DNA from: a virus
Reading direction: 5' to 3' (one strand)
Length of the DNA: 26,092 nucleotides
Virus record (IMG/VR): IMGVR_UViG_3300017744_002287
Location: 1-26,092 of that record
The number at the start of each line of letters is the position of its first letter. Positions within the stretch are counted from its first letter, which is position 1. Of the stretch, positions 713 to 23,353 are shown in pieces. A program made the translations under genes and the position numbers. The notes under the pieces were generated by a model. That model saw only the letters and a program-made list of their open reading frames with translations. It ran no database searches and was not told where the DNA came from.

Positions 713-1774
713 CTATACATCCATTAGTTTAACAAGATATTCTGCAGTTACACCGTGTTTTGGTTTTACAAACAATAACCATTGACATGGTTTACCCATG
801 CTTGCTAATTGTTCTAGTGCATAAGTGTTATAACTTTCTGTACTTCCATTAACCCAAAGCCTAATATCATTAAGATACATAGTTGTAGGTGTATGAAAAT
901 GGCCAGCTATAGCATAATCAAAGTCTGGCATCATACCATTTGCAGCTAATGTTTTCCAACCTTGTAGTTTTTTTCCGAATCCATACCATGGAAAACCACC
1001 AAAACCTCTGATGTTATCGCCATGCCATAAGAAAAATTTACAATTTTCTCCTAGGTCTGCAACATCAAACCAATGATTGTCACTCTCACTGTCTGGTATT
1101 GTCCATTGTATTCTTTTTTCGTCTCTATATATCATTGACATAATTTTGCCAAGCATTCTATCTGCATTGGAATCTGGATGGTAGTCTTTTCTACTACGTC
1201 CACCTAAATGTCCATGATTACCTATTACCCAATGTACGTCTACTTCGTCAAAGTTTGCAAGTAATATGTCAAAAAATTTAGTCATTATACGTGGACCGTC
1301 TACTGTTACTTGTTTGTATAATGAACTGTCAATTAAATGTGATTGTCCAGGAAATATAAGTTCGCCTTCTATTATATCTCCAACTGCAAACACTGCACAT
1401 TTTTTAACCTTATGTACATGTCTTTGTACATTAGCTAAATCAACTATCTTATTTGCATACTTAACAACTCTTTCTTCAGCTATTTCTGTATTGTATTCTG
1501 GTGTTACTTTAGCTAATTGTATATCTGATAATATAGCAACTGCTATCTCTTCATCCTTTCTTACTTTATTAGTTTTAGGTTTAGGTATTTTAGGTTTATC
1601 CCAAGTTCTTAAATTGGTATTAACAGCATCATAAATAGAATTTATTAAATCCTCTTTTTTATTTTTAGCTTTATCTAATTGTTTAAGTAACTTTAAATTG
1701 TCTTTTTTAAGTTCCTGTATTTGAGTAGATTCAGCAGCTGCTAACAGTTCGTCTATATTTTTTTTATTTGCCAT
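713..1774 (-). CDS. calcineurin-like metallophosphoesterase
   Basis: The ATG at 1774 is preferred over a TTG two codons upstream; the product is about 353 aa. Residues about 10-45 are lysine/glutamate-rich and probably a coiled coil. The phosphoesterase motifs then follow in order: SDIQ (84-86), GDIIEG (near 133), GNHGH (near 186), WHGD (near 251) and GHFH (near 292). Together these form the two-metal site of the Mre11/SbcD-like calcineurin superfamily, which hydrolyses phosphoesters, often nucleic acid ends or nucleotides. The first motif has glutamine where the usual D-x-H has histidine, and GNHG replaces GNHD. The start lies inside the end of the preceding 78-aa gene, so translation is probably coupled. 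The neighbouring Rad52-like gene suggests a role in DNA processing or recombination. Substrate unknown. Confidence 0.85.
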   Translation of the reverse strand: MANKKNIDELLAAAESTQIQELKKDNLKLLKQLDKAKNKKEDLINSIYDAVNTNLRTWDKPKIPKPKTNKVRKDEEIAVAILSDIQLAKVTPEYNTEIAEERVVKYANKIVDLANVQRHVHKVKKCAVFAVGDIIEGELIFPGQSHLIDSSLYKQVTVDGPRIMTKFFDILLANFDEVDVHWVIGNHGHLGGRSRKDYHPDSNADRMLGKIMSMIYRDEKRIQWTIPDSESDNHWFDVADLGENCKFFLWHGDNIRGFGGFPWYGFGKKLQGWKTLAANGMMPDFDYAIAGHFHTPTTMYLNDIRLWVNGSTESYNTYALEQLASMGKPCQWLLFVKPKHGVTAEYLVKLMDV

Positions 1775-2000
1775 TGTCAAACTTTTTTAAATAGTTTTTC
1801 ATAGCAGTTTCTGATAATTTAATATTAAAATTATCCTCAAGTATTCTACATAATACGTAAGGTTTCATCTTAACATTGTCTTCGGTTATTCTTTTTTTGA
1901 TTGCGTCCCAAAATTCACGAGCATCGTCTGTAATTGCATCTTCTACAAGATTACCTTTCATTCCATGCTCAGCTTCTGAGACTAATTTATTTATATCCAT
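1764..2000 (-). CDS. hypothetical 78-aa protein, probably translated from a leaderless mRNA
   Basis: ATG at 2000 to TAA at 1764. The protein is mostly helical and charged (VEDAITDDAREFWDAIKKR, then a segment like a small winged-helix or HTH, LCRILEDNFNIKLSETAMK). It could be a small DNA-binding protein, but no family is recognised. No Shine-Dalgarno is visible before the ATG. Instead a perfect TATAAT ends seven bases before the A of the ATG, which puts the transcription start on the start codon itself. It is the first gene after a terminator and appears to lead the unit that also makes the metallophosphoesterase, the 55-aa ORF and the Rad52-like protein. Confidence 0.75.
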   Translation of the reverse strand: MDINKLVSEAEHGMKGNLVEDAITDDAREFWDAIKKRITEDNVKMKPYVLCRILEDNFNIKLSETAMKNYLKKFDNGK

Positions 2001-2167: not shown

Positions 2168-3673
2168 TTAGTTTAACTGATTTATTTGTAATGCAAAGGC
2201 TTTAACATCATCTATATCTGCTAATCTTGTGATATTATTTACTCGTAGAATTTCTTGACATTCTTTAAATAAATTACCACTATTAGAACCTGCTTTACCA
2301 AATACATACATATCTGATACCCATATTCTTTTAGATTTTTGAGTACCTAACCAACGTAATGCAGGTCCGTCAACACCATTACCGCCACCAGTATATTTGT
2401 CCAAATATTCTTGTTGAACTCGCTTACCTCTATCTGCAATAATACGTAACGAACCTGATTGATAAGAATCGTAATAACCTTGATTGTACATAGCAATTTT
2501 AACTGCTGGTAGTAACAACATAATATCTAATATATCTTGTCCATCAAAATTCATAGAACCTGATGCGTCAATAAGTATTGTGCCACCATAAACTCGTTGT
2601 TTTTGTTGAAACACTTTCTTATCTACACACCAACGATTAATATACTTAGGATTAGTACCATAATCCATAGGTCTATATTCTCTTCCTTTCTTTAATTTAC
2701 TTTGCATATTTACAGATAATTCTGGTTTATGAGTTATCATATCGCACCATTGTCCATTATTAGCTTGTAAATCTACTGCATAATTTATGTCAGCAGGGTA
2801 TGTTTCTTTAATTTGTTCTTCTTTTTGTCTACTTTCTAACATTGCTTCTTCTAATGTCTGTGGTTTTTCATTATCATCTTCAGATACATCACCAGATTTT
2901 TTCTTATTACCATGTGACATAGAATTTTTAGCACGTTGTTCTGCTGCTAAACGTTCAGATTCATATATTTGTTCTTTAGTAGGTTTATCATTAAAATTAT
3001 CCATTAATTTATGCAAATCTTTTGCTACTTTTCTTACTTTTGCATAACTAGGACTTTCAGCATAATAATAAGAGCGTCCATTTTTTACTATTCTGTTGTA
3101 AAAACTTTCAGCTTTTTTTATAGCCCAATTTACTTGTGATATACGATACCTAGTAAGTTCATTTGTATCTTTTACTTCTTTCCATATTTCTTTGAATAAA
3201 GTAAATTCTCTACTATCTGGTGTCCATCTATTATAAGCAGACTTTTCATTTTGTATAGGCCACATTTGACTCATCAAATAAAGTATTATTTCAAATTCAG
3301 AGTTATTATATATCATTTCATAATGTTTTTTCTCTAAATCTTCAGGACATAATATCCAATCGTCCATAAATAATTCTTTTCTACATAATAAATAACCAAT
3401 ACGCACTTCTTCACATGCCTCAATAGTTATTTCTGATTCGTCAGGTCCTAGCCTCCCAATAGTTTTGGGAGACCATTTAACATGACCTAATTCATGACGT
3501 CTTATATTTCTAGAATGAAAATGTCCACAATTTGCACATTCATCATCTAAAGGAACATACATTTCTTTAGATTGATTTGATGTACGTGGTCTATCTGCAT
3601 CCTCAAATATTTTCCAGTCTGATTCACCAGATACAATATCTGGAAATGGTATTTTATTCTTCTTCTGATACAT
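2168..3673 (-). CDS. metallopeptidase-like / VWA domain protein, partner of the MoxR-type ATPase
   Basis: 501 aa. The N-terminal part has a CxxC (C47, C50) followed by HELGH at 60-64, a textbook HExxH zinc motif, and acidic residues near 86-89 (EACEE) that could supply a third ligand. The middle (about 230-300) is charged and low-complexity. The C-terminal part holds a von Willebrand A domain with the MIDAS sequence DASGSM at 369-374 and an aspartate in WVSD at 454. This layout, a putative metallopeptidase region followed by a VWA-like domain beside a MoxR ATPase, resembles the DUF2201-type and CobS/CobT-type pairs, in which the ATPase and VWA protein act as a chaperone or metal-insertion machine. 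The gene overlaps the ATPase gene by 20 bases, so the two are translationally coupled. What it acts on in the phage is unknown. Confidence 0.8.
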   Translation of the reverse strand: MYQKKNKIPFPDIVSGESDWKIFEDADRPRTSNQSKEMYVPLDDECANCGHFHSRNIRRHELGHVKWSPKTIGRLGPDESEITIEACEEVRIGYLLCRKELFMDDWILCPEDLEKKHYEMIYNNSEFEIILYLMSQMWPIQNEKSAYNRWTPDSREFTLFKEIWKEVKDTNELTRYRISQVNWAIKKAESFYNRIVKNGRSYYYAESPSYAKVRKVAKDLHKLMDNFNDKPTKEQIYESERLAAEQRAKNSMSHGNKKKSGDVSEDDNEKPQTLEEAMLESRQKEEQIKETYPADINYAVDLQANNGQWCDMITHKPELSVNMQSKLKKGREYRPMDYGTNPKYINRWCVDKKVFQQKQRVYGGTILIDASGSMNFDGQDILDIMLLLPAVKIAMYNQGYYDSYQSGSLRIIADRGKRVQQEYLDKYTGGGNGVDGPALRWLGTQKSKRIWVSDMYVFGKAGSNSGNLFKECQEILRVNNITRLADIDDVKAFALQINQLN

Positions 3674-4406
3674 AATTTAACTCAGTGTCATTTATTTCAA
3701 TATCGTCTGATAATTTAATAGCATCCATTAATTCTGTAGCTCTATCTTGAAATATTAGAAATGCTGCTTGTTCTTTACTTAAACCTTTTTCTAAAAGTTC
3801 AAAAAATTCACGCCAACTTCTAATAGACAGTCTAGTTTCCATATCAGTACTTAACGAACTTTCTGATATAGTTGATTGCCACGATTTAGGGAACATTGCT
3901 AATGCTTTAGGATGTATAGTATCAACATGTATTTTAACTGGGAACCTATCTTTCAATGCCATAGGCAGTGATTCAGGTAACGAGTTAGTTGTAGCTATTA
4001 CAGTAAAACCTCGTTCAGGTCGTACTGTTTCCTTATTGTCATTATTTAATGTCAATTGTGCTATATCTTTGTCATCTAATATAGCATGCAAAAATGTCAT
4101 AGCGTCTGGTGATGCATGGTCTATCTCATTGATAACTAACCTACCACCTTTACGCCATGATTGTATTGCAATACCGTCATGCCATTCAAACGTGCCTGTA
4201 CTACTTGGTTTGTAAAAACCTTCTAAGTTAGCACTAGCTGTGTCTTCTGTCATAGTTACTTGATATACATTAGGTTCTCCTTCTAATGTCATACCAACTT
4301 TTTGCGTTGCAGCACTATATGTTTTACCCGTGCCAGGTGGCCCGTATAATAATATTCTGTCTGCGTTTCCGATTGCAGCGTCAACTGCTTCCCAACAATT
4401 TTTCAT
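3654..4406 (-). CDS. MoxR/CobS-type AAA+ ATPase
   Basis: 250 aa with an AAAGGAG Shine-Dalgarno before the ATG at 4406. Walker A GPPGTGKT is at residues 22-29, Walker B (RLVINEID) at about 89-96, sensor 1 asparagine in IATTN near 141, and an arginine-finger-like ALKDRF near 150-155. The short length, the P-loop near the N-terminus and the E-I-D-H-A Walker B extension fit the MoxR/CobS/dynein-related AAA+ group, which pairs with VWA proteins to remodel protein targets or insert metal cofactors. Its partner is the next gene, overlapping by 20 bases. CobS-like ATPases are known in marine phages, but nothing here shows a link to cobalamin. Expected location: cytoplasm of the infected cell. Confidence 0.9.
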   Translation of the reverse strand: MKNCWEAVDAAIGNADRILLYGPPGTGKTYSAATQKVGMTLEGEPNVYQVTMTEDTASANLEGFYKPSSTGTFEWHDGIAIQSWRKGGRLVINEIDHASPDAMTFLHAILDDKDIAQLTLNNDNKETVRPERGFTVIATTNSLPESLPMALKDRFPVKIHVDTIHPKALAMFPKSWQSTISESSLSTDMETRLSIRSWREFFELLEKGLSKEQAAFLIFQDRATELMDAIKLSDDIEINDTELNYVSEEE

Positions 4407-4424: not shown

Positions 4425-4733
4425 TTAATATACAGATGGTACAAAACGACAATAAATGTCAATTTGTCCTGTATCTATATTTCTTCTTTGTTTAATTTCA
4501 AACACACCTTTATCTTTAAGATGTGTTATGTTTTTTTGTGTCATATTTTCTATATTAGATTTAACACCACTTATCCATTTGTCACTTGAACCTATAACGT
4601 ACCATTCTTCTGGTGTTGATAGCAAAGTTTTAGCTATGCTATCTGTTAATAGGTTTGGTTGTTTACCACTTCTGTTTAACCCAGCAGCTGGTGGTGTTTT
4701 TCTTTCTATAGGTTTATTATTATCAATTGTCAT
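4425..4733 (-). CDS. hypothetical protein, 102 aa
   Basis: ATG at 4733 lies inside the end of the upstream 173-aa gene (11-base overlap), with no strong Shine-Dalgarno, so translation is probably coupled. The N-terminal 25 residues are polar and proline-rich (PIERKTPPAAG), likely disordered. The rest looks like a small mixed alpha/beta domain, with a possible helix-turn-helix-like region (MTQKNITHLKDKGVFEIKQR). The gene sits directly ahead of the MoxR ATPase. No family recognised. It could be a small regulator or an adaptor for the ATPase module; that is speculation from position. Confidence 0.75.
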   Translation of the reverse strand: MTIDNNKPIERKTPPAAGLNRSGKQPNLLTDSIAKTLLSTPEEWYVIGSSDKWISGVKSNIENMTQKNITHLKDKGVFEIKQRRNIDTGQIDIYCRFVPSVY

Positions 4734-5244
4734 TATTTTTTAACCATTGTTCTACATCATCCGCCACATGTGACGCGACTTCTTCTAATCCAGTAGCAGC
4801 TATGCCGATAATTAAATCTTCATTATCTACTAAACATGCTTGTATTGAAGTTGGTTCTGATAAATAAAAATCATGAAATGCTTTATTTTCTAATATAAAA
4901 GTATGAAATTCTGTCACTGATTCCATAGTAAATTCTACTTTGTCTTGTCTATCAAGTACTTTGTAAAATTGAGTCAATATCATCATTTTCCTCATCTTAT
5001 CTATTTCCAATGCTTGTTGTATAGCAGCATTAACGTCTATTGCATATACTCTATAACGTGAAGTTATAACTTTTTCATTGGTATTAAATACTTTTGAACT
5101 AAAAAACGTATTTTCAGTGTCTGATTTTACATAACATGTTGTTACATAATATAGACGTTGATTGTTTTTTATTACTTGTATTTGTTCGTTATTGCTAAAT
5201 TCCTCATCGCAATTTGGACAGTCGCAATTTTCTTCATCACTCAT
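4723..5244 (-). CDS. hypothetical protein with N-terminal CxCxxC motif, 173 aa
   Basis: ATG at 5244 is preceded by AAAGGAATACT, an AAAGGA Shine-Dalgarno with good spacing. The N-terminus has three closely spaced cysteines (C7, C9, C12 in NCDCPNCDEEF), compatible with metal binding, although a fourth cysteine is not adjacent. The body is a mix of beta and alpha segments with no recognised domain. It is the first gene after structured leader RNA copy 1 (5263-5403), whose last stem ends about 15 bases before the start codon, so its expression may be controlled by that RNA. It leads a cluster with the 102-aa, MoxR and VWA genes. Confidence 0.75.
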   Translation of the reverse strand: MSDEENCDCPNCDEEFSNNEQIQVIKNNQRLYYVTTCYVKSDTENTFFSSKVFNTNEKVITSRYRVYAIDVNAAIQQALEIDKMRKMMILTQFYKVLDRQDKVEFTMESVTEFHTFILENKAFHDFYLSEPTSIQACLVDNEDLIIGIAATGLEEVASHVADDVEQWLKNNDN

Positions 5245-5262
5245 AGTATTCCTTTCTGCTTA

Positions 5263-5403
5263 AATAGCTTGTAACACACAGTTTGAGGTTGCCTAGAAAA
5301 CCTATTACAAAATGCTTTCGCTTAGATTGTAAGACCTTACTATGTGCTACAAGCTACTTACATAGAACGTAAACAAAGGGGATTGTTTATATAATAAGTA
5401 GCT
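5263..5403 (-). ncRNA. structured 5' leader RNA, copy 1
   Basis: On the minus strand: hairpin P1 (AGCTACTTA/TAAGTAGCT, 5395-5403 with 5352-5360) with an inner stem AAACA/TGTTT around ATCCCC; then P2, in which TAGCTTGTA (5356-5348) pairs with TACAAGCTA (5273-5265). Inside P2 are a hairpin closed by TTACAA/TTGTAA ending in GC-GAAA-GC (a GNRA loop) and an AGGTT/AACCT hairpin. P1 and P2 share five bases (5352-5356). The P2 3' arm plus TTTA leads straight into the Shine-Dalgarno of the 173-aa gene. Copy 2 at 6703-6889 has the same plan with changed but still paired stem bases. Not matched to any known RNA class by me. Confidence 0.65.
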
Positions 5404-5423
5404 TTTATCCTGCTGGGATAAAA
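5403..5423 (-). repeat. 8-bp stem-loop upstream of leader RNA copy 1
   Basis: TTTTATCC/GGATAAAA around a five-base loop. It is symmetric in sequence, so it could act on either strand, and it lies between the terminator at 5440-5464 and leader RNA copy 1. Copy 2 of the leader has no equivalent. Confidence 0.55.
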
Positions 5424-5439
5424 TTCAAAATAGAAAATA

Positions 5440-5464
5440 TAAAAAAAGATAGCGTTAGCTATCT
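5440..5464 (-). terminator. rho-independent terminator built from a GTTA-loop hairpin (copy 2)
   Basis: A 7-bp stem AGATAGC/GCTATCT with loop TAAC (minus strand), followed directly by seven Us. The stop codon of the 92-aa zinc-ribbon gene (5463-5465) overlaps the stem. The 16-base core is identical to the hairpin at 8445-8460. Confidence 0.85.
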
Positions 5465-5741
5465 ATATGTCAGTTGATAAATCATAATCTTCATAACTGG
5501 CATGACATTTCCAGCACCACCACATGTCTGTATATTCATCGTCAAATTCTAATTCATATCCACAATCGCAAATAGGTTTGTTAGCTTTATTTTGCTGCTT
5601 CCATTCCCATTCAGGTTCAGGCTTGAATTGTTGACGTAACTTGTATAGTGCTATGTCTATTTCTATTATTTTAATTAATTGTTTAATATGGTATATAATC
5701 CATTTATAGATATTATTGTTAAAGAATTTAAGATTTATCAT
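5463..5741 (-). CDS. small zinc-ribbon-like protein, about 92 aa
   Basis: The ATG at 5741 is chosen over an in-frame TTG at 5753; both lie inside the end of the preceding 49-aa ORF. The N-terminal half is basic, aromatic and isoleucine-rich (IYKWIIYHIKQLIKIIEI), perhaps an amphipathic helix that touches membrane or nucleic acid. The C-terminal half has CDCGYELEF then WWCWKC, which makes a C-x-C...C-x2-C zinc-ribbon-like arrangement with acidic surroundings. No family recognised. It is the last gene of the six-gene cluster starting at 6688 and ends in the terminator hairpin. Confidence 0.7.
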   Translation of the reverse strand: MINLKFFNNNIYKWIIYHIKQLIKIIEIDIALYKLRQQFKPEPEWEWKQQNKANKPICDCGYELEFDDEYTDMWWCWKCHASYEDYDLSTDI

Positions 5742-5877
5742 CTTTAAACACAAAAACTTCCATATTAAAATTAGGATGTACAGTTAAAATGTCTTTTTGT
5801 GCAGTTTTTATAGCTGTTACTATATCTTTTGCAAAATAAGTCTTTTCTCCTTTAAAACTAATCCTAAATTTCTTCAT
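5728..5877 (-). CDS. hypothetical protein, 49 aa
   Basis: ATG at 5877 with GGAAAG upstream, ending in TAA at 5728. The start overlaps the end of the 74-aa gene by 14 bases, and its own end overlaps the next gene. The sequence (KKFRISFKGEKTYFAKDIV, then a helix, then NMEVFVFKDDKS) reads as a small beta-alpha-beta protein. No family recognised. The nested overlaps and the start signal support it as real. Confidence 0.65.
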   Translation of the reverse strand: MKKFRISFKGEKTYFAKDIVTAIKTAQKDILTVHPNFNMEVFVFKDDKS

Positions 5878-6088
5878 AATCTTTCCATATTTCTAATATA
5901 TCAAGAACATAAGCGTCAAATTTCTTATTTTCCCCAGCAATTCTTATTACTTCATGTATATTTTCTATTATGTCGTCATTATCCATATCTTCTGGATATA
6001 CAAATGTCACTGATATATCTTTAGTCATATATCTTTTCTCTGTATTATGGTATATGTATACTTCGTTATTGTCTATATCGTTATTCAT
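5864..6088 (-). CDS. hypothetical acidic protein, 74 aa
   Basis: ATG at 6088 with GGAGGAAG Shine-Dalgarno, overlapping the previous stop codon as ATGA. The product is strongly acidic (many Asp/Glu, e.g. YPEDMDNDDIIENIHEVI) with alternating strand and helix. Small acidic early phage proteins often act as host-protein inhibitors or DNA mimics, but nothing specific is recognised here. Part of the six-gene cluster downstream of leader RNA copy 2. Confidence 0.75.
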   Translation of the reverse strand: MNNDIDNNEVYIYHNTEKRYMTKDISVTFVYPEDMDNDDIIENIHEVIRIAGENKKFDAYVLDILEIWKDYEEI

Positions 6089-6294
6089 TCTTCCTCCAAT
6101 TCTGTAATAACAGTTTGTAACTGTATTACATTTAATTTTAATTGACTAATAATGTCTTGTTTTTGTTGTTTTTTAGTGTTACCATATGTTTTACTACCAA
6201 AATAAGATAAATATCCACCACCAAAACCTACATTTTCGGTATTAAACGGAACAGATATACTTATATCTTTAGCAAATTCTCTAATTTTTACCAT
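6085..6294 (-). CDS. hypothetical protein, 69 aa
   Basis: The ATG at 6294 is chosen because it forms a TAATG overlap with the stop of the 53-aa ORF and has a purine-rich GAAGAAG upstream. A longer in-frame reading to 6348 would run deep into that ORF. The product has a glycine/tyrosine-rich centre (GFGGGYLSYFGSK) and a helical C-terminus that looks coiled-coil (KLNVIQLQTVITELEEE). Function unknown. Confidence 0.7.
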   Translation of the reverse strand: MVKIREFAKDISISVPFNTENVGFGGGYLSYFGSKTYGNTKKQQKQDIISQLKLNVIQLQTVITELEEE

Positions 6295-6455
6295 TATTCT
6301 TCTTCTTTTACTTTTTCTGGAGTCATTGTTTGTATTTGTGTTAACCATAGAGCTTGTTGTTCGGCTGTCATAATATTAAAAGCCAAGTCTATATGTTTAC
6401 GTAATACTTTAATGATTGCTAATGCTTTAGCAACACTCATTATTATGTCATTCAT
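6294..6455 (-). CDS. hypothetical protein, 53 aa
   Basis: ATG at 6455 overlaps the stop of the 78-aa gene as ATGA, and its own stop overlaps the next start as TAATG. The product is a helical peptide (SVAKALAIIKVLRKHIDLAF then MTAEQQALWLTQIQTM). Both ends show the translational coupling typical of this cluster. The helix pattern resembles that of the preceding 78-aa protein (AIIKGY there, AIIKVL here), so the two may interact or be related; this is weak. Confidence 0.7.
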   Translation of the reverse strand: MNDIIMSVAKALAIIKVLRKHIDLAFNIMTAEQQALWLTQIQTMTPEKVKEEE

Positions 6456-6688
6456 TGTTCTTCTCCTTTATTTATTTTATTTATTTGTGTATCAATTAAA
6501 AAAGAAAATCTGTTTAACAACATACTTGTATAACCTTTGATAATTGCTAGAGCTTTGTCATCTTCTGACCACTCTTCTAATTCTATTAATATTAATAATA
6601 TTAAATTTCTGACTGAATTGTTATCTAATTGATTGATTTTATCTAACCATTCATCATGTGTTTGTTTTATTTGTTTCATTTTTGCCAA
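6452..6688 (-). CDS. hypothetical helical protein, 78 aa (TTG start)
   Basis: The first possible start is TTG at 6688, four bases after AAGGAGG; the next ATG (6679) would sit 13 bases away, so TTG is preferred. The product is helical and charged, with a leucine/isoleucine-rich centre (NLILLILIELEEW) and a lysine-rich end. No family recognised. It is the first gene after structured leader RNA copy 2, whose final stem ends a few bases before the Shine-Dalgarno, so translation initiation is probably exposed to control by that RNA. Confidence 0.7.
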   Translation of the reverse strand: MAKMKQIKQTHDEWLDKINQLDNNSVRNLILLILIELEEWSEDDKALAIIKGYTSMLLNRFSFLIDTQINKINKGEEQ

Positions 6689-6702
6689 TTTACCTCCTTA
6701 TA

Positions 6703-6889
6703 AATAGCTTGTAACTTACCGTGTATTAATACTGTTTGTGCTACCGATGACTATTGCTAGTCACTTTCAACCGCACTCATATTTCTCAGTATTAATTCGA
6801 ATGTTCGCACATCGACTTACCAAGCACGATAAGCTACAAGCTATCTACATTGTTGCATACAGGGCATTGTATTTAATTTGTAGATAGCT
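6703..6889 (-). ncRNA. structured 5' leader RNA, copy 2
   Basis: On the minus strand: P1 AGCTATCTAC/GTAGATAGCT (6889-6880 with 6848-6839), inner stem ATACA/TGTAT around ATGCCC, then P2 pairing TAGCTTGTA (6843-6835) with TACAAGCTA (6713-6705). Inside P2 are TCGATGT-GCGA-ACATTCGA (a GNRA loop with one bulge) and a 10-bp stem ATTAATACTG/CAGTATTAAT carrying GTGC/GCAC and then GTGACTA-GCAA-TAGTCAT (another GNRA loop). Same plan as copy 1, but with longer internal branches and compensatory changes in P1 and the inner stem. P1 and P2 again share five bases. The RNA abuts the Shine-Dalgarno of the 78-aa gene. Confidence 0.65.
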
Positions 6890-8397: not shown

Positions 8398-8444
8398 AAT
8401 TTAATCTCCTTTTCATAATGAACATAAAAGAAAAACAGCCGAAA

Positions 8445-8460
8445 GATAGCGTTAGCTATC
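8445..8460 (-). repeat. GTTA-loop hairpin, copy 3, overlapping a stop codon
   Basis: GATAGC-GTTA-GCTATC, identical over 16 bases to the terminator hairpin at 5448-5463. With wobble pairs the minus-strand stem extends to about 9 bp. It is followed by TTTCGGCTGTTTTTC, so it may terminate weakly. The stop codon TAA of the 35-aa gene lies within the TAAC loop. Confidence 0.8.
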
Positions 8461-8559
8461 CTCCAGCCATAATTCTGTAGTATTTAATTTGTAATCCCAA
8501 CATGGGTCACAAAATTTAAGGCCTTGCATTGGTAGCTTAGCCTGACATCTAGTACACAT
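8452..8559 (-). CDS. tiny four-cysteine (zinc-knuckle-like) protein, 35 aa
   Basis: The ATG at 8559 immediately follows the stop of the 44-aa ORF with no gap. The sequence contains MCTRC near the start and KFCDPCW in the middle, a C-x2-C...C-x2-C set typical of a small zinc-binding knuckle. The stop TAA is inside the loop of a GTTA hairpin. No promoter of its own is seen; it would be translated by re-initiation after the 44-aa ORF. Function unknown. Its small size leaves some doubt. Confidence 0.6.
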   Translation of the reverse strand: MCTRCQAKLPMQGLKFCDPCWDYKLNTTELWLEDS

Positions 8560-8694
8560 TTAATGTACCTGACAACCACCAGTGACGCAAAGGCATGGGT
8601 CATTGAATTGCTCGGCTTGATAAGTCATTAGCTCATCTGCGAACAAGTCATCATACCATTGGTCAATGTGTTTCTCTGGGTAGTGTGTTCTCAT
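8560..8694 (-). CDS. small hypothetical protein, 44 aa
   Basis: ATG at 8694 with AAAGGATATT upstream (AAAGGA Shine-Dalgarno). The product starts MRTHYPEKHIDQWYDD and ends NDPCLCVTGGCQVH, with three cysteines in the last ten residues that could bind metal. It is the first gene of the leftward block, next to the hairpin-rich intergenic region. No family recognised. The start signal and the directly abutting next ORF support it. Confidence 0.6.
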   Translation of the reverse strand: MRTHYPEKHIDQWYDDLFADELMTYQAEQFNDPCLCVTGGCQVH

Positions 8695-8735
8695 AATATC
8701 CTTTCATAAATGTCATAATAGAAGATAGAGAATAT

Positions 8736-8924
8736 GTGTGCGTTAGCATACTTACTACCTACCTAATGATTAAGAAACTATCCCTTAAGTAAGGAACAGA
8801 TGTCTGTATATCATAGAAGAAAGGATGTAGAAAGAGTACGTTAGTACTCAAGCGTTAGCATAGCGTTAGCACTTGATAGCGTTAGCTTGACCTACCGATG
8901 TAAACCTGGACGTACGTTAGTATC
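8736..8924. repeat. cluster of GTTA-loop mini-hairpins (six units)
   Basis: Units: GTGTGC-GTTA-GCATAC (8736), GAGTAC-GTTA-GTACTC (8834), AGC-GTTA-GCA (8851), AGC-GTTA-GCA (8862), ATAGC-GTTA-GCT (8877) and GTAC-GTTA-GTAT (8912). The stem sequence changes while C-GTTA-G stays fixed. TCAAGC (8848) and GCTTGA (8885) also form an outer inverted repeat around three units. See the findings for interpretation. Confidence 0.75.
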
Positions 8925-9122
8925 TATGTATCTAGTTTAAGATATGCTGGTAATACTGTAGTTGGTTGGGACGTAACGGGCCAGTGTTTACCTGTCTTTT
9001 CTGATTAGTAGCTCTATTAAGTCCTTGAGTATTCGGTTTGTGTTTCTGCTGTATACTTTCGTATCCCGAACTTTCTGCCCCCCGATGGCAACTTCACTTG
9101 TAACTGAATTTACTTCTAATGT

Positions 9123-9151
9123 TTGTAATTATTACCAATATAACATATAAT
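9123..9151 (+). promoter_or_regulatory. sigma70-type promoter for the late genes
   Basis: TTGTAA at 9123-9128, a 17-base spacer, and TATAAT at 9146-9151. The expected start is near 9158, giving a leader of about 28 bases before the terminase ATG at 9186, with AGAAAGA as a modest Shine-Dalgarno. Confidence 0.75.
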
Positions 9152-9185
9152 TAAATCTACGCAACCATCTACAGAAAGATAGATT

Positions 9186-19205: not shown

Positions 19206-20705
19206 ATGGCAGAAGATAAAAAAAATAATTACAAAAAGGGAAAAGCTTTACGTGAAGCAATAGCTGCTTGGTTTTCATCAAAAGACACTACGCATTGGAA
19301 TGAAAAATACGGATTACCTGCAGATGCAGTTTTAACATATGGAGAGTATGGACCAAATAAAAAATATAGTTTTAGATTGTTATTAGGGCCAAGCAATAAA
19401 GTAGAATTTATTGAAATAAGTGGTGCAACTATACCAATAACAGATTTACCTAATTATCAAGAATATATATCAGAAGAATGGACATACGAACCAGGATTTA
19501 TTACAGGTCTTTTTGGATTACCTGAAACTTTACCAAAAATAGAAGAAGCAAAACTCATACAAGAATCTATTGTACAAACAGACACTGAAGCAGAATCTGT
19601 TGTACCTAGTGAAGACACTACTTATTTTGAAACTGAAGTACGTAACCGAAAACCTATTCCAGGAGCAACACAAGAAATTGTCGCTAGAGCACCTATAGGT
19701 GAATTAAAAGGTGATGCATTTGACCGATATGTTACAGGAGTAGCAGAGAATAACTTAACTCCAGAACAAGCATATGTAAATGCAACTGGACAACAATTAC
19801 CAGGATTTTTAACTGACGAAAATGGAGATATTTTATTTGAAGAAGTGGATGGTTCGTTTGTTCCTATACCTATAGAAGTACAACCTCAATCTTTATTTAT
19901 GACTGATTTTGTAAATCATATAGGCAAACAAGGACCAGACGTAATTGATTATTTTAAAGATATTTTAATTAGACAAGGTATAGCTGATGAAGGTGATTTT
20001 GATGACACTGGTGAAATGGATATGAATTTACGAGGATACATTGAAGTGTTAATGGCACAATCAAATTATGACAACGCAGGTGTTATGTATGGTTCTAATG
20101 AATATATGGATTTAATAGACACTATACCTGATAGTTATAATTGGGTTGAAGATTCAAATATGAATGTAGAAAAAGTATCTTGGGCTTTATTAAATCAAGC
20201 TATTTACAAATACCCAGAACGAGAAAAATTATTAATGAATGTTGATGTTAAAGCAAAAGAAAAAGAATATGAAATCGAAAAAGATATTCCTACAGAAGCA
20301 TATATGGCAAGAAGAATTGATGCATTATTTCAAGAAGAATTAGATAGACCACCAACTGAAGAAGAAAGAAATAAATATTTAAACAGTTGGAACTCACGAT
20401 ATGATAATTATGCACAAAATTTAGCATATGCATACAAAGCAGCTAAGTATGGTGCAGACATGGAAAATTATTTAATTGAAAATGGTAAAAGTATAGATAT
20501 GACTGGTGCTATGGGTGGAGATTATAGAGATACTATAGGTACACGTGAAATAGGTACTAGAACTTTAAATGATGATGATATTCAAGAAGAAACTTTATAT
20601 GAAATTGAAACTGATTTAAAAACAGAAAAAGACCTTATTGAAGCTGGACAAAATCGTAGAAAACATCAAAGTAATATAATAGGTGTTATGACAGGTAAAA
20701 TATAA
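19206..20705 (+). CDS. hypothetical late protein, 499 aa, possible virion protein
   Basis: ATG at 19206 with AGGAAA upstream, eight bases after the giant gene. The N-terminal about 100 residues look like a globular alpha/beta domain (AVLTYGEYGPNKKYSFRLLL). A second part, about 130-260, is acidic and extended. The C-terminal half is helical and contains FQEELDRPPTEEERNKYLNS, a pattern (R-P-P-T-x-x-E) seen in several large phage virion proteins. No enzymatic motif is visible. Its end overlaps the next gene as TAATG. Co-expression with the giant protein suggests a shared structure. Confidence 0.8.
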   Translation: MAEDKKNNYKKGKALREAIAAWFSSKDTTHWNEKYGLPADAVLTYGEYGPNKKYSFRLLLGPSNKVEFIEISGATIPITDLPNYQEYISEEWTYEPGFITGLFGLPETLPKIEEAKLIQESIVQTDTEAESVVPSEDTTYFETEVRNRKPIPGATQEIVARAPIGELKGDAFDRYVTGVAENNLTPEQAYVNATGQQLPGFLTDENGDILFEEVDGSFVPIPIEVQPQSLFMTDFVNHIGKQGPDVIDYFKDILIRQGIADEGDFDDTGEMDMNLRGYIEVLMAQSNYDNAGVMYGSNEYMDLIDTIPDSYNWVEDSNMNVEKVSWALLNQAIYKYPEREKLLMNVDVKAKEKEYEIEKDIPTEAYMARRIDALFQEELDRPPTEEERNKYLNSWNSRYDNYAQNLAYAYKAAKYGADMENYLIENGKSIDMTGAMGGDYRDTIGTREIGTRTLNDDDIQEETLYEIETDLKTEKDLIEAGQNRRKHQSNIIGVMTGKI

Positions 20706-23353
20706 TGGCTACACAACAAGAAATAAAAGAAATAGTATCAGCATTAAAAGATACCTTAAAAGACACTAAAGGTTACTCTGATGAAAATATTGAAAATCTA
20801 GTTAAACAATTAACAGCTGCATTAAAAAACACAAAGGGTGAAGATATTGAAAAAGTATTTAAAGAAATAATACCTGACTCTGAAATATGGGATAAAGTAC
20901 AAGAAATTAGTAATGCTAGACGTATAGACCGTAAAGAAGTTGTGCAAGAAAGTAAAGCTGAAACTCCTAAAGGTAAAAATGTAGATTGGATAGATGAATT
21001 AGCTGATAATGAAATATTTGTTTTTGGAAGTAACCGAAAAGGAATACATGGTAAAGGAGCTGCATTAGATGCTAAAAATAAATTTGGTGCTCAAGAAGGA
21101 GTAGGAGAAGGATTAACTGGAAAATCATATGCTTTACCTACTAAAGCTACTCCTAATAAAAGTTTATCTTTAGAGGAAATTAGTAAACATATAGATACGT
21201 TTTTAAAATTTGCTGCAGAGAATCCAAATAAAACATTTAAAATGACAGCTATAGGAACTAACTTAGCTGGCTTTGAACCAAAACAAATAGCAAATATATT
21301 ATTTAGTAAAAATATACCTGGTAATGTAGATGTACCTTCAAGTTTTAGTAATGTTAAAACTGCTACTGATGAAACTCCTGATGAAATATTAAAAGATAAT
21401 GAAAGGTTTTCACAATATGATGATGTAGATATGAAACCAAGTAATACACCTAAATTAACTAATGGTGTAATAAATCCTGCAGATAAACATAATTTAGAAT
21501 ACATTGTTAAAAATCTAAAAAACATTCCTAACCAAGCAGATAGAAAAGCATGGGTAGGAAAACAACCACAATACATACAAGATTTAGCTAATAAATATAA
21601 AAATAGTTATATTACCGAACAAATGGGTTTAGGGAAAACTGTTGATAAACCTATTACAGAAGCAACTAATGTAAGTCCAGAAAATGTAAATAATGCTAAA
21701 GTTGTAAGAAAACCTCTAACTTCTGATTTTGAATTAGGCATTCCTAATTACGGAAAAAAGATACCAGACAATACAGTAAAAGTTTGGAATTTAGGAAGAA
21801 AAATATTTGAACAAGAAATAGACGTGACAAAACTTGTAGATGGTAAACCTGCAGTTAGTGGTTGGGAACCTAATTTAATAGGTACTGGTCATCAAGAAGG
21901 AATATTAATAGACAAAGGATTAATGGAAGCTGAATGGTTAAATTATGGAAAAGAAGTTCCTAAACCAGGAGAAAGAATAGTACATGGTTTTGATGGTAAC
22001 GCTAGAAGAAATATAAAAAATCTTAAAGGTGGTATTGAATGGAATTATGGTATTGCTACAGAAGTAATAGAAGTTGAAGAACTTGCTGGTGATTGGTTTA
22101 ATGATATTGAAATGAGAAATAAAATTGCTAGACAAATGGGTATTACTCCACAAGCATTAGAAAAATTAGTTATTAGTGGTAAAACAGGTGCTGAACAAAG
22201 TCAAAGAGCTGGTTTTTATGTTGATAAATGGTCAGATGCTTATTTTGTTAAAGTTAAACCATTAACAGAAAAAGATATAACTGACAAATGGATAAATGCT
22301 GAAGAAGGTATAAACGTCAAAGCAACAAGTGTAGAAGCCGCAGCTAGAAGTTGGGGATTTGATGCTACTAAAAATATTGAATTAGATAAATTGCTTAAAG
22401 GAGTTATACCTTTAATGGGTGCGGGATTAAAAAAAGGAGCTAAATTATTAGATTACGGAGAAGTAATTTATGGATGGATGGCTAATGGTATTGGTGGAGT
22501 ATTAAATAAATTAGGTCCACCAGGTAAAGCTGTTGCTAGTGTTGTGGGCCAAGGTGCCAAAAAAGGTACAGCTACGCTTACAGCTGCTGGAGCAGGTGTT
22601 ACAAAGTCTACAGCAGCCAAAGTTGGAGTTAAAGCTGGATTAGGTGCAACTGCAGCAACAGGTTCAGTTACTGCTATGGCCGCTTATGAAAAAGCAAACT
22701 TTTATTATGGTATAGCTAGTGGAATAATATTATCTGCTATAGAAACATTAGGTATTATTACTAAAGATACTTTTGGAGAACAGTCTATTAAAAATGCTTT
22801 AGGGCCTGAATATGAAAAGTGGGCAGAATCTAATGGAATTATTGATAAAATAGGTGTATATCCACTTATAAATAGTTTAGAACTAGCTGAAGAACAAGGT
22901 ATATTATCTCCTGGATTTGTTGACGAATATACTAATTGGACTAATGACAAATGGATAAATGTTATATATGAGTTTTTAGGAACAGAAGGATATGAAGATA
23001 TGGAATCAATCAATACTGTATGGAGAGAAAAAAGAGCACCACAAAATTGGTTTGGTAGCCTTAATGATGTATTTGGTTTAAATTCAGGAACAGCGTTAAT
23101 GAATGCTGGGTTTATACCAGAAACAGGATTAATGCCTGCAATAAAACGTTCACCAATAATAACTGGTATAGAAATACCTTTTGAAAATTGGTTATTACCT
23201 AAAGTAGGATTAGAAGATTGGGTATATCCTGAAGATAATTACTCAGATGAAACACAATTAATAGAAGATTTTAACAATTATGGAGATATAACTCCAGTGG
23301 ACAATAACGCTTGGTTAGGTAATATGTCATCAATAGGAGATGTAGATGAATAG
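20705..23353 (+). CDS. 882-aa late protein with an A1S_2505-like domain and a Gly/Ala-rich hydrophobic region
   Basis: Residues 100-214 contain EIFVFGSNRKGIHGKGAA, then FGAQEGVGEGLTGKSYALPT, then MTAIGTNLAGFEPKQIANI, matching the order of motifs in the phage-associated A1S_2505-like family. Its G-S-N...G-x-G-A-A loop recalls macro-domain nucleotide-binding loops; a biochemical role is not established to my knowledge. Residues about 330-540 are an unrecognised alpha/beta region. From about 560 to 690 the protein is rich in Gly/Ala/Val with hydrophobic stretches (e.g. FYYGIASGIILSAIETLGII), which could insert into membrane. The combination in a late gene suggests a protein carried in the head and ejected with DNA. 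No signal peptide. Its end overlaps the next gene by eight bases. Confidence 0.8.
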   Translation: MATQQEIKEIVSALKDTLKDTKGYSDENIENLVKQLTAALKNTKGEDIEKVFKEIIPDSEIWDKVQEISNARRIDRKEVVQESKAETPKGKNVDWIDELADNEIFVFGSNRKGIHGKGAALDAKNKFGAQEGVGEGLTGKSYALPTKATPNKSLSLEEISKHIDTFLKFAAENPNKTFKMTAIGTNLAGFEPKQIANILFSKNIPGNVDVPSSFSNVKTATDETPDEILKDNERFSQYDDVDMKPSNTPKLTNGVINPADKHNLEYIVKNLKNIPNQADRKAWVGKQPQYIQDLANKYKNSYITEQMGLGKTVDKPITEATNVSPENVNNAKVVRKPLTSDFELGIPNYGKKIPDNTVKVWNLGRKIFEQEIDVTKLVDGKPAVSGWEPNLIGTGHQEGILIDKGLMEAEWLNYGKEVPKPGERIVHGFDGNARRNIKNLKGGIEWNYGIATEVIEVEELAGDWFNDIEMRNKIARQMGITPQALEKLVISGKTGAEQSQRAGFYVDKWSDAYFVKVKPLTEKDITDKWINAEEGINVKATSVEAAARSWGFDATKNIELDKLLKGVIPLMGAGLKKGAKLLDYGEVIYGWMANGIGGVLNKLGPPGKAVASVVGQGAKKGTATLTAAGAGVTKSTAAKVGVKAGLGATAATGSVTAMAAYEKANFYYGIASGIILSAIETLGIITKDTFGEQSIKNALGPEYEKWAESNGIIDKIGVYPLINSLELAEEQGILSPGFVDEYTNWTNDKWINVIYEFLGTEGYEDMESINTVWREKRAPQNWFGSLNDVFGLNSGTALMNAGFIPETGLMPAIKRSPIITGIEIPFENWLLPKVGLEDWVYPEDNYSDETQLIEDFNNYGDITPVDNNAWLGNMSSIGDVDE

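Follow-up and report, generated by a model that had tools for sequence, protein, structure and literature searches.

Hypervariable loci of phages are usually protein genes, e.g. for tail fibres or anti-defence proteins. In strand-exchange riboswitches, mutually exclusive helices share a strand, in some cases before the Shine–Dalgarno sequence; the promoter-stem-loop (PeSL) cassettes of T4-type phages are simple hairpins between small early genes, with the genes being the parts that move (homing-driven mosaicism); and Y RNAs, which are bound by Ro60, carry a variable, sometimes tRNA-like inner module on a constant end-stem. The antitoxins of type III systems (ToxI, AntiQ, CptI) are small pseudoknotted RNAs, with ToxI arrays repeating one unit of about 36 nt beside the toxin gene, and phage TE has a 'pseudo-ToxI' escape RNA that neutralises a type III defence toxin of its host (PMC5086642).

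The locus described below lies in a virus sequence of 26,092 nt from IMG/VR (IMGVR_UViG_3300017744_002287, positions 1 to 26,092), which as a whole is referred to as the window. Its two copies of an RNA element, A and B, are members of a large, apparently undescribed RNA family in uncultured phages; between phages of 97% identity, it is structured noncoding RNA that is replaced most sharply. This RNA class is real.

Two copies in the window

Both copies lie on the minus strand (table 1). An initial annotation had read from each a hairpin P1, the segment TAGCTTGTAGC and a closing arm TTACAAGCTATTTA before the Shine–Dalgarno sequence, all of which are seen in A as well as in B. In copy A, TAGCTTGTAGC occupies 5356-5346 and GTTACAAGCTATTTA, which includes the 14-mer TTACAAGCTATTTA, occupies 5275-5261, with AGCAGAAAGG standing between the element and the ATG of the following gene; in copy B, TAGCTTGTAGC is followed later by GTTACAAGCTATTTA and then by TAAGGAGG. 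P1 differs in sequence between the copies but pairs in both, and its inner stem reads AAACA/TGTTT with the loop ATCCCC in A and ATACA/TGTAT around ATGCCC in B, just as first described. The genes behind the two copies are indeed unrelated. A covariance model of the hairpin class X1 (see below) matches the P1 hairpin of copy B at 6839-6889 (28.6 bits, E=0.0013), which, judged by this match, is a divergent member of that class.

Against dinucleotide shuffles, copies A and B reach folding z-scores of -5.56 and -5.47, respectively, with none of 200 shuffles equalling them, and chance or composition as the origin of the fold is ruled out by such shuffle tests. What has to be given up is the idea of one fixed plan with a branched interior as part of it: constancy is limited to P1/X and the arms, and even phages 97% identical to each other differ by wholesale replacement of the interior. 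Copy A has an interior of 63 nt and copy B one of 110 nt, and these are unrelated modules rather than variants of a single fold.

Table 1. Coordinates of the two elements and adjoining features in the window.
Feature	Positions	Strand	Sequence or remark
Copy A, whole element	5403-5261	minus	read from sequence
Copy A, P1 hairpin with X domain	5352..5403	minus	arms AGCTACTTAT (5403-5394) and GTAAGTAGCT (5361-5352)
Copy A, closing helix, 5' strand	5342..5356	minus	TAGCTTGTAGCACAT; first five bases common with P1
Copy A, exchangeable interior Y	5279..5341	minus	63 nt, cluster 19
Copy A, closing helix, 3' strand	5261..5278	minus	TGTGTTACAAGCTA + TTTA
Terminator-like hairpin	5441..5463	minus	GATAG-CTAACG-CTATC + T run; directly upstream of copy A; sequence reading
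Gene behind copy A	4723..5244	minus	173 aa, no Pfam match
Copy B, whole element	6889-6700	minus	read from sequence
Copy B, P1 hairpin with X domain	6839..6889	minus	arms AGCTATCTAC (6889-6880) and GTAGATAGCT (6848-6839)
Copy B, closing helix, 5' strand	6829..6843	minus	TAGCTTGTAGCTTAT
Copy B, exchangeable interior Y	6719..6828	minus	110 nt, kin to the L263 interior
Copy B, closing helix, 3' strand	6700..6718	minus	TAAGTTACAAGCTA + TTTAT; adjoins Shine–Dalgarno AAGGAGG (6699-6693)
Gene behind copy B	6452..6688	minus	at most 78 aa, no Pfam match

That the elements belong to a known RNA family, i.e. are degenerate tRNAs or tmRNAs, riboswitches or type III antitoxins, is hardly credible. T-arm-like hairpins do occur in some interiors (clusters 3 and 6), but Rfam and ARAGORN, used for a check that the initial annotation had itself suggested, are negative. 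In the whole window, nothing in Rfam 15 matches at E=1 or below; laxer filters, applied to the 1.75-kb stretch, add only a snoRNA match at chance level (E=2). For the element loci L116, L102, L479, L438 and L253 there is no match up to E=0.5, and chance-level matches only with laxer filters. ARAGORN finds no tRNA in the window, and the cloverleaf of a degenerate tRNA was found neither by ARAGORN nor by Rfam. The tmRNA match in locus L522 is to a separate RNA beside the element.

Such tmRNA-like RNAs deserve a description of their own. In 100 searched sources, there were 17 matches of 64-86 nt that resemble a tmRNA reduced to its tRNA-like domain, the entire mRNA-like and pseudoknot part being absent (L522:12214-12293(+), L528:3445-3524(+), L531:7213-7293(+), L424:11561-11642(+), as well as L054, L090, L147, L156, L163, L166, L386, L403, L425, L431, L439, L461 and L532). 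G3-U70 and A73 are present in 14 of 14 aligned sequences, and the one in L522 matches Rfam tmRNA at E=2.5e-19; ARAGORN calls none of them, and none was found in the window. They are possibly tag-less tmRNA decoys, which would fit RNA mimicry.

Elsewhere in the window, the gene at 2168-3673 (minus strand), whose product contains a VWA-like DASGSM as well as a HELGH motif and has no Pfam match, adjoins that of an AAA+ ATPase (3654-4406, minus strand), which is reminiscent of MoxR/VWA pairs. An 882-aa late protein (20705-23353, plus strand), also without Pfam match, contains VFGSNRKGIHGKGAALDAKNKFGA, which by eye resembles macro-type ADP-ribose-binding domains. The divergent region near window positions 8400-9185 corresponds to another conserved, apparently structured noncoding stretch between terminase and early genes in two loci (L520:3029-3814 and L524:6358-6668), where it runs GTTACAAGT...CATCGGGG...GGGATACG...ACACAAACC...ACTCAAGGA.

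The family in IMG/VR and the exchange of interiors

Exact scans of IMG/VR seeded on the arms, followed by a two-arm filter, recovered at least 373 elements (at least 306 of them unique) in at least 263 loci; the further homologues that had been proposed as a check thus exist in hundreds. The arms TAGCTTGTAGCACAT and TGTGTTACAAGCTA are nearly invariant in these elements, in part because they served as the search seed. They enclose at least 264 distinct interiors of 8 to 170 nt, which form at least 117 BLAST clusters, a count in which remote homologues may be split among clusters, with 59 singletons among the matches listed. The interior of copy A (cluster 19) recurs in L116/L221, L479 and L485, and tandem elements hold unlike interiors. 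A coding role of the inserts is ruled out, with lengths in all three phases and an open frame in only 12 of 306.

The elements reside in long same-strand gaps (median 392 nt, compared with 57 nt for all gaps at the same loci). Consecutive modules make up about 820 nt of ORF-poor sequence in L116, flanked by promoter-like TGTAACCTTTT...TAGTCTAAGT motifs. Promoter-like TGTAACCTTTT...AGTCTAAGTA repeats were seen in L116 (1680-1700, 2157-2190, 2927-2955, 3761-3790, 4259-4290) and also in L528, and in a 52-kb phage lineage TGTAACCTTTT...AGTCTAAGTA precedes most early genes and RNA arrays.

Searches of isolate phages yielded no DNA-level relative, and the matches of the window's terminase to cultured phages, among those listed, are all below 30% identity. 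None of the open-access papers searched describes such elements. A scan of 84,980 bacterial and archaeal species, with one genome each, gave mostly chance 15-mer matches and a single convincing locus, L312. Its contig, which lies inside a gammaproteobacterial MAG (MED855), is itself of a phage and encodes a terminase with 60% identity to the window's; it is probably a co-binned phage and a weak hint at host or habitat.

How interiors change is most directly seen in a phage, G001 (IMGVR_UViG_3300025168_000198, 40,860 bp), that aligns with the window along 19.3 kb at 97.1% identity and along a further 6.1 kb at 96.6%. At both sites, the interiors are swapped for unrelated ones (63 nt replaced by 48 nt in A, 110 nt by 33 nt in B), with P1, X, arms, Shine–Dalgarno sequence and genes being retained and the breaks falling in the arms. 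Among syntenic pairs, which are not independent of each other, the module is different in 35 and the same in 71 when the flanks are at least 95% identical, and different in 70 and the same in 8 when they are 65-89% identical. In the more distantly related G007 (terminase 80% identical), several modules are arrayed at homologous site 1, and the element at site 2 has different arms. The window's terminase is common to 13 of 16 long contigs, at 51-98% identity. In G011 and G012, no homologue of it is detectable and a Terminase_6N protein is found instead; G011 holds the arm-interior-arm hairpin of copy A (95% over 104 nt), with nothing else window-like at E 1e-6 or better in the stretches fetched. 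By all these comparisons, the interior is an exchangeable cassette that is replaced whole at fixed sites, and whole-insert swaps in near-identical phages suggest a fast-changing RNA arsenal or a sensor system. With a single-strand annealing protein encoded in G001 and an exonuclease-family protein at window positions 713-1780, short-homology exchange is plausible.

RNA-level selection and two alternative helices

Inverted arms, cassette-like exchange and occurrence in unrelated lineages would also be expected of a DNA-level mobile or recombination element, i.e. a REPIN/MITE-like hairpin or an attC-like site, with the inserts being cargo and RNA structure incidental. We consider this very unlikely, since orientation is strict: of the 266 elements with a clear local coding strand, 263 are in sense with the genes and 3 antisense, which is not the lack of strand preference that characterises REPIN, MITE and attC elements. 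Moreover, wobbles in the outer helix are G-U/U-G in 1049 cases and A-C/C-A in 24, an excess that fixes which strand must pair, and there are interiors that recur within other stems, accompanied by compensatory changes. No antisense insertions in number, target-site duplications or linked recombinase were seen in the loci examined, and the genes searched in the window and in G001 include no recognisable transposase or integrase.

Family scans, sense bias and covariation tests all support the initial proposal of a phage RNA class with covarying stems that is conserved as RNA. Two module alignments exceed all or nearly all of 500 shuffles, with kinship being ignored in both tests: the X1 class (AGTARGAG - stem - GCCCTGTT - stem - RACTGAA) surpasses each of the 500 on all five measures, its slid controls collapsing, and the interior family M_B (20 sequences, two-sided changes in 15 of 26 pairs) tops all 500 shuffles on four of the measures and 499 of them on the remaining one. 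In several X and Y modules, compensatory change is strong and extends to the replacement of whole stems. The arms change from CACA/TGTG to CTTA/TAAG in copy B, L402 and L479, the pseudoknot of module M_D from UGGAA/UUCCA to AGGAA/UUCCU, and one interior is found in differing outer stems, e.g. AGCTTGTAGCACAT with TGTGTTACAAGCT, or AGCTTGAAAGATAT with GTATCTTTCAAGCT. M_D, copies of which occur in L198, L160, L139, L172, L189, L433, L227 and L462, is also seen within the stem AGAAAGGAAATGATGAAA/TTTCATCTTTC, whose 5' strand resembles a ribosome-binding site plus ATG.

Folded alone, the interiors reach a mean z-score of -0.75 against shuffles (113 clusters; coding control -0.10), a modest gain in stability that is to be expected if pseudoknots matter or if some inserts fold loosely. 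Together with constant arms around extremely diverse interiors, these modest scores might also mean that only the stem matters, e.g. as an RNase III site, for 5'-end protection or as a transcript boundary, and that the interior of such a passive stability or processing hairpin is shuffled filler. This appears improbable to us, because filler would neither retain particular loops and pseudoknot pairs nor turn up again in other lineages and other stems, as the interiors do.

In both copies, the closing helix is TAGCTTGTAGC...GTTACAAGCTA, and the 3' strand of P1 (TAAGTAGCT in A, TAGATAGCT in B) doubles as its outer portion. The two helices are thus alternatives, of which only one can form completely at a time. 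When each is forced, the predicted gap between the two states is 3.2 kcal/mol for A and 0.2 kcal/mol for B, with a family median of 5.1. Covariation links the shared strand to both partners: in 25 variant triples, 225 of 250 pairs are kept, compared with 214.1 +/- 2.7 on permutation (0 of 5000; kinship ignored). In addition, P1 has at least 9 bp in 217 of 301 elements, as opposed to 10 of 301 with shuffled flanks. Mutually exclusive structures as in riboswitches are therefore indicated by the shared strand, three-strand covariation and near-equal predicted energies in the window, and a folding switch, in which P1 and the closing helix exchange the strand, is probably added to the element. Pairing of the X-loop CCCC with the Shine–Dalgarno sequence, also considered, amounts by eye to about 5 bp in A and 3 bp in B and is too weak.

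Possible functions and known systems

Passive hairpins and DNA elements fit less well than an action of the RNA either in cis or in trans. In cis, the element would be an exchangeable sensor, with P1 and the closing helix as a common expression platform and X and Y as swappable aptamers that control translation of the next early gene in response to a host protein, RNA or metabolite. The covarying shared strand and the small predicted energy gaps speak for such a sensor, as does the 3' arm adjoining the Shine–Dalgarno sequence in both window copies. A start codon follows 10-29 nt behind 56 of 305 elements, both window copies included, and to this extent the original description as a leader RNA stands; many other elements are in arrays or distant from any start codon, which argues against both this description and the sensor. 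The gene family downstream of copy A follows 62 elements holding 29 interior clusters, and interior cluster 2 stands before 8 gene families, which is not the picture of a riboswitch aptamer tied to one class of genes. An association of interiors with downstream genes was sought and none was found, i.e. the two are decoupled. Moreover, no ligand or known aptamer was matched. Altogether, a sensor in cis is the main rival to action in trans, at clearly less than an even chance.

Conservation follows the module and not the gene, which favours module-specific action in trans. In the model that we prefer, a constant frame, i.e. the P1/X hairpin and the closing helix on the shared strand, would display one exchangeable Y domain at a time. 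The arms may act as homology handles for recombination, with the phage single-strand annealing protein and exonuclease perhaps aiding exchange between them. Each Y would be an RNA complete in itself and directed in trans at a host factor, as a decoy, mimic or inhibitor, most likely in counter-defence, where hosts would select for ever-changing Y domains; an element abutting a Shine–Dalgarno sequence may also tune the gene behind it. For this modular element as a whole, our confidence comes near to even but stays below it. That Y modules are trans-acting decoys or inhibitors of host factors is a proposal we make tentatively, at somewhat less than an even chance. The position of both window copies, with a start codon 10-29 nt behind them, agrees with a role in cis, and three-strand covariation suits a switch; both count against action in trans. 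More doubtful still is a combinatorial RNA system in which more than 100 domains are pooled, shared between lineages and recombined into a two-state stem as effectors against host factors. If true, such a system would be the RNA counterpart of protein anti-defence islands. If the elements act in cis, they would represent a natural plug-and-play riboswitch chassis. Either way, more than 100 RNA modules become candidates for study, several of them supported by covariation, and the same genome with a swapped RNA is a natural experiment that makes function directly testable.

Like riboswitches, the phage elements have two exclusive helices on a shared strand, sometimes before a Shine–Dalgarno sequence; a riboswitch class, however, keeps its aptamer, whereas here the putative aptamer is exchanged and platform and gene stay. 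With PeSL cassettes they have in common that they are stem-loops between small early phage genes, perhaps serving recombination, but it is the RNA interior that moves while the genes are unchanged. Conserved inverted ends with variable content are reminiscent of integron attC cassettes and REPIN/MITE hairpins, from which the phage elements differ by being strand-fixed with the genes, by G-U polarity and compensatory folds and by no linked recombinase being seen. Y RNAs, too, combine a terminal stem that stays constant with an inner module that varies and is tRNA-like in some cases; the inner modules of the phage elements are far more diverse and without Rfam match, and Ro60 was not recognised among the window genes searched. 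In contrast to the tandem repeats of ToxI arrays, each unit differs here and is closed by a common stem, and a gene for a ToxN/AbiQ-like endoribonuclease was not recognised among the window genes searched. The nearest functional precedent for these phage elements is 'pseudo-ToxI' (PMC5086642); if the Y modules act in trans, phages would manipulate their hosts by RNA more widely, and in a more modular way, than the handful of known cases like this one suggests.
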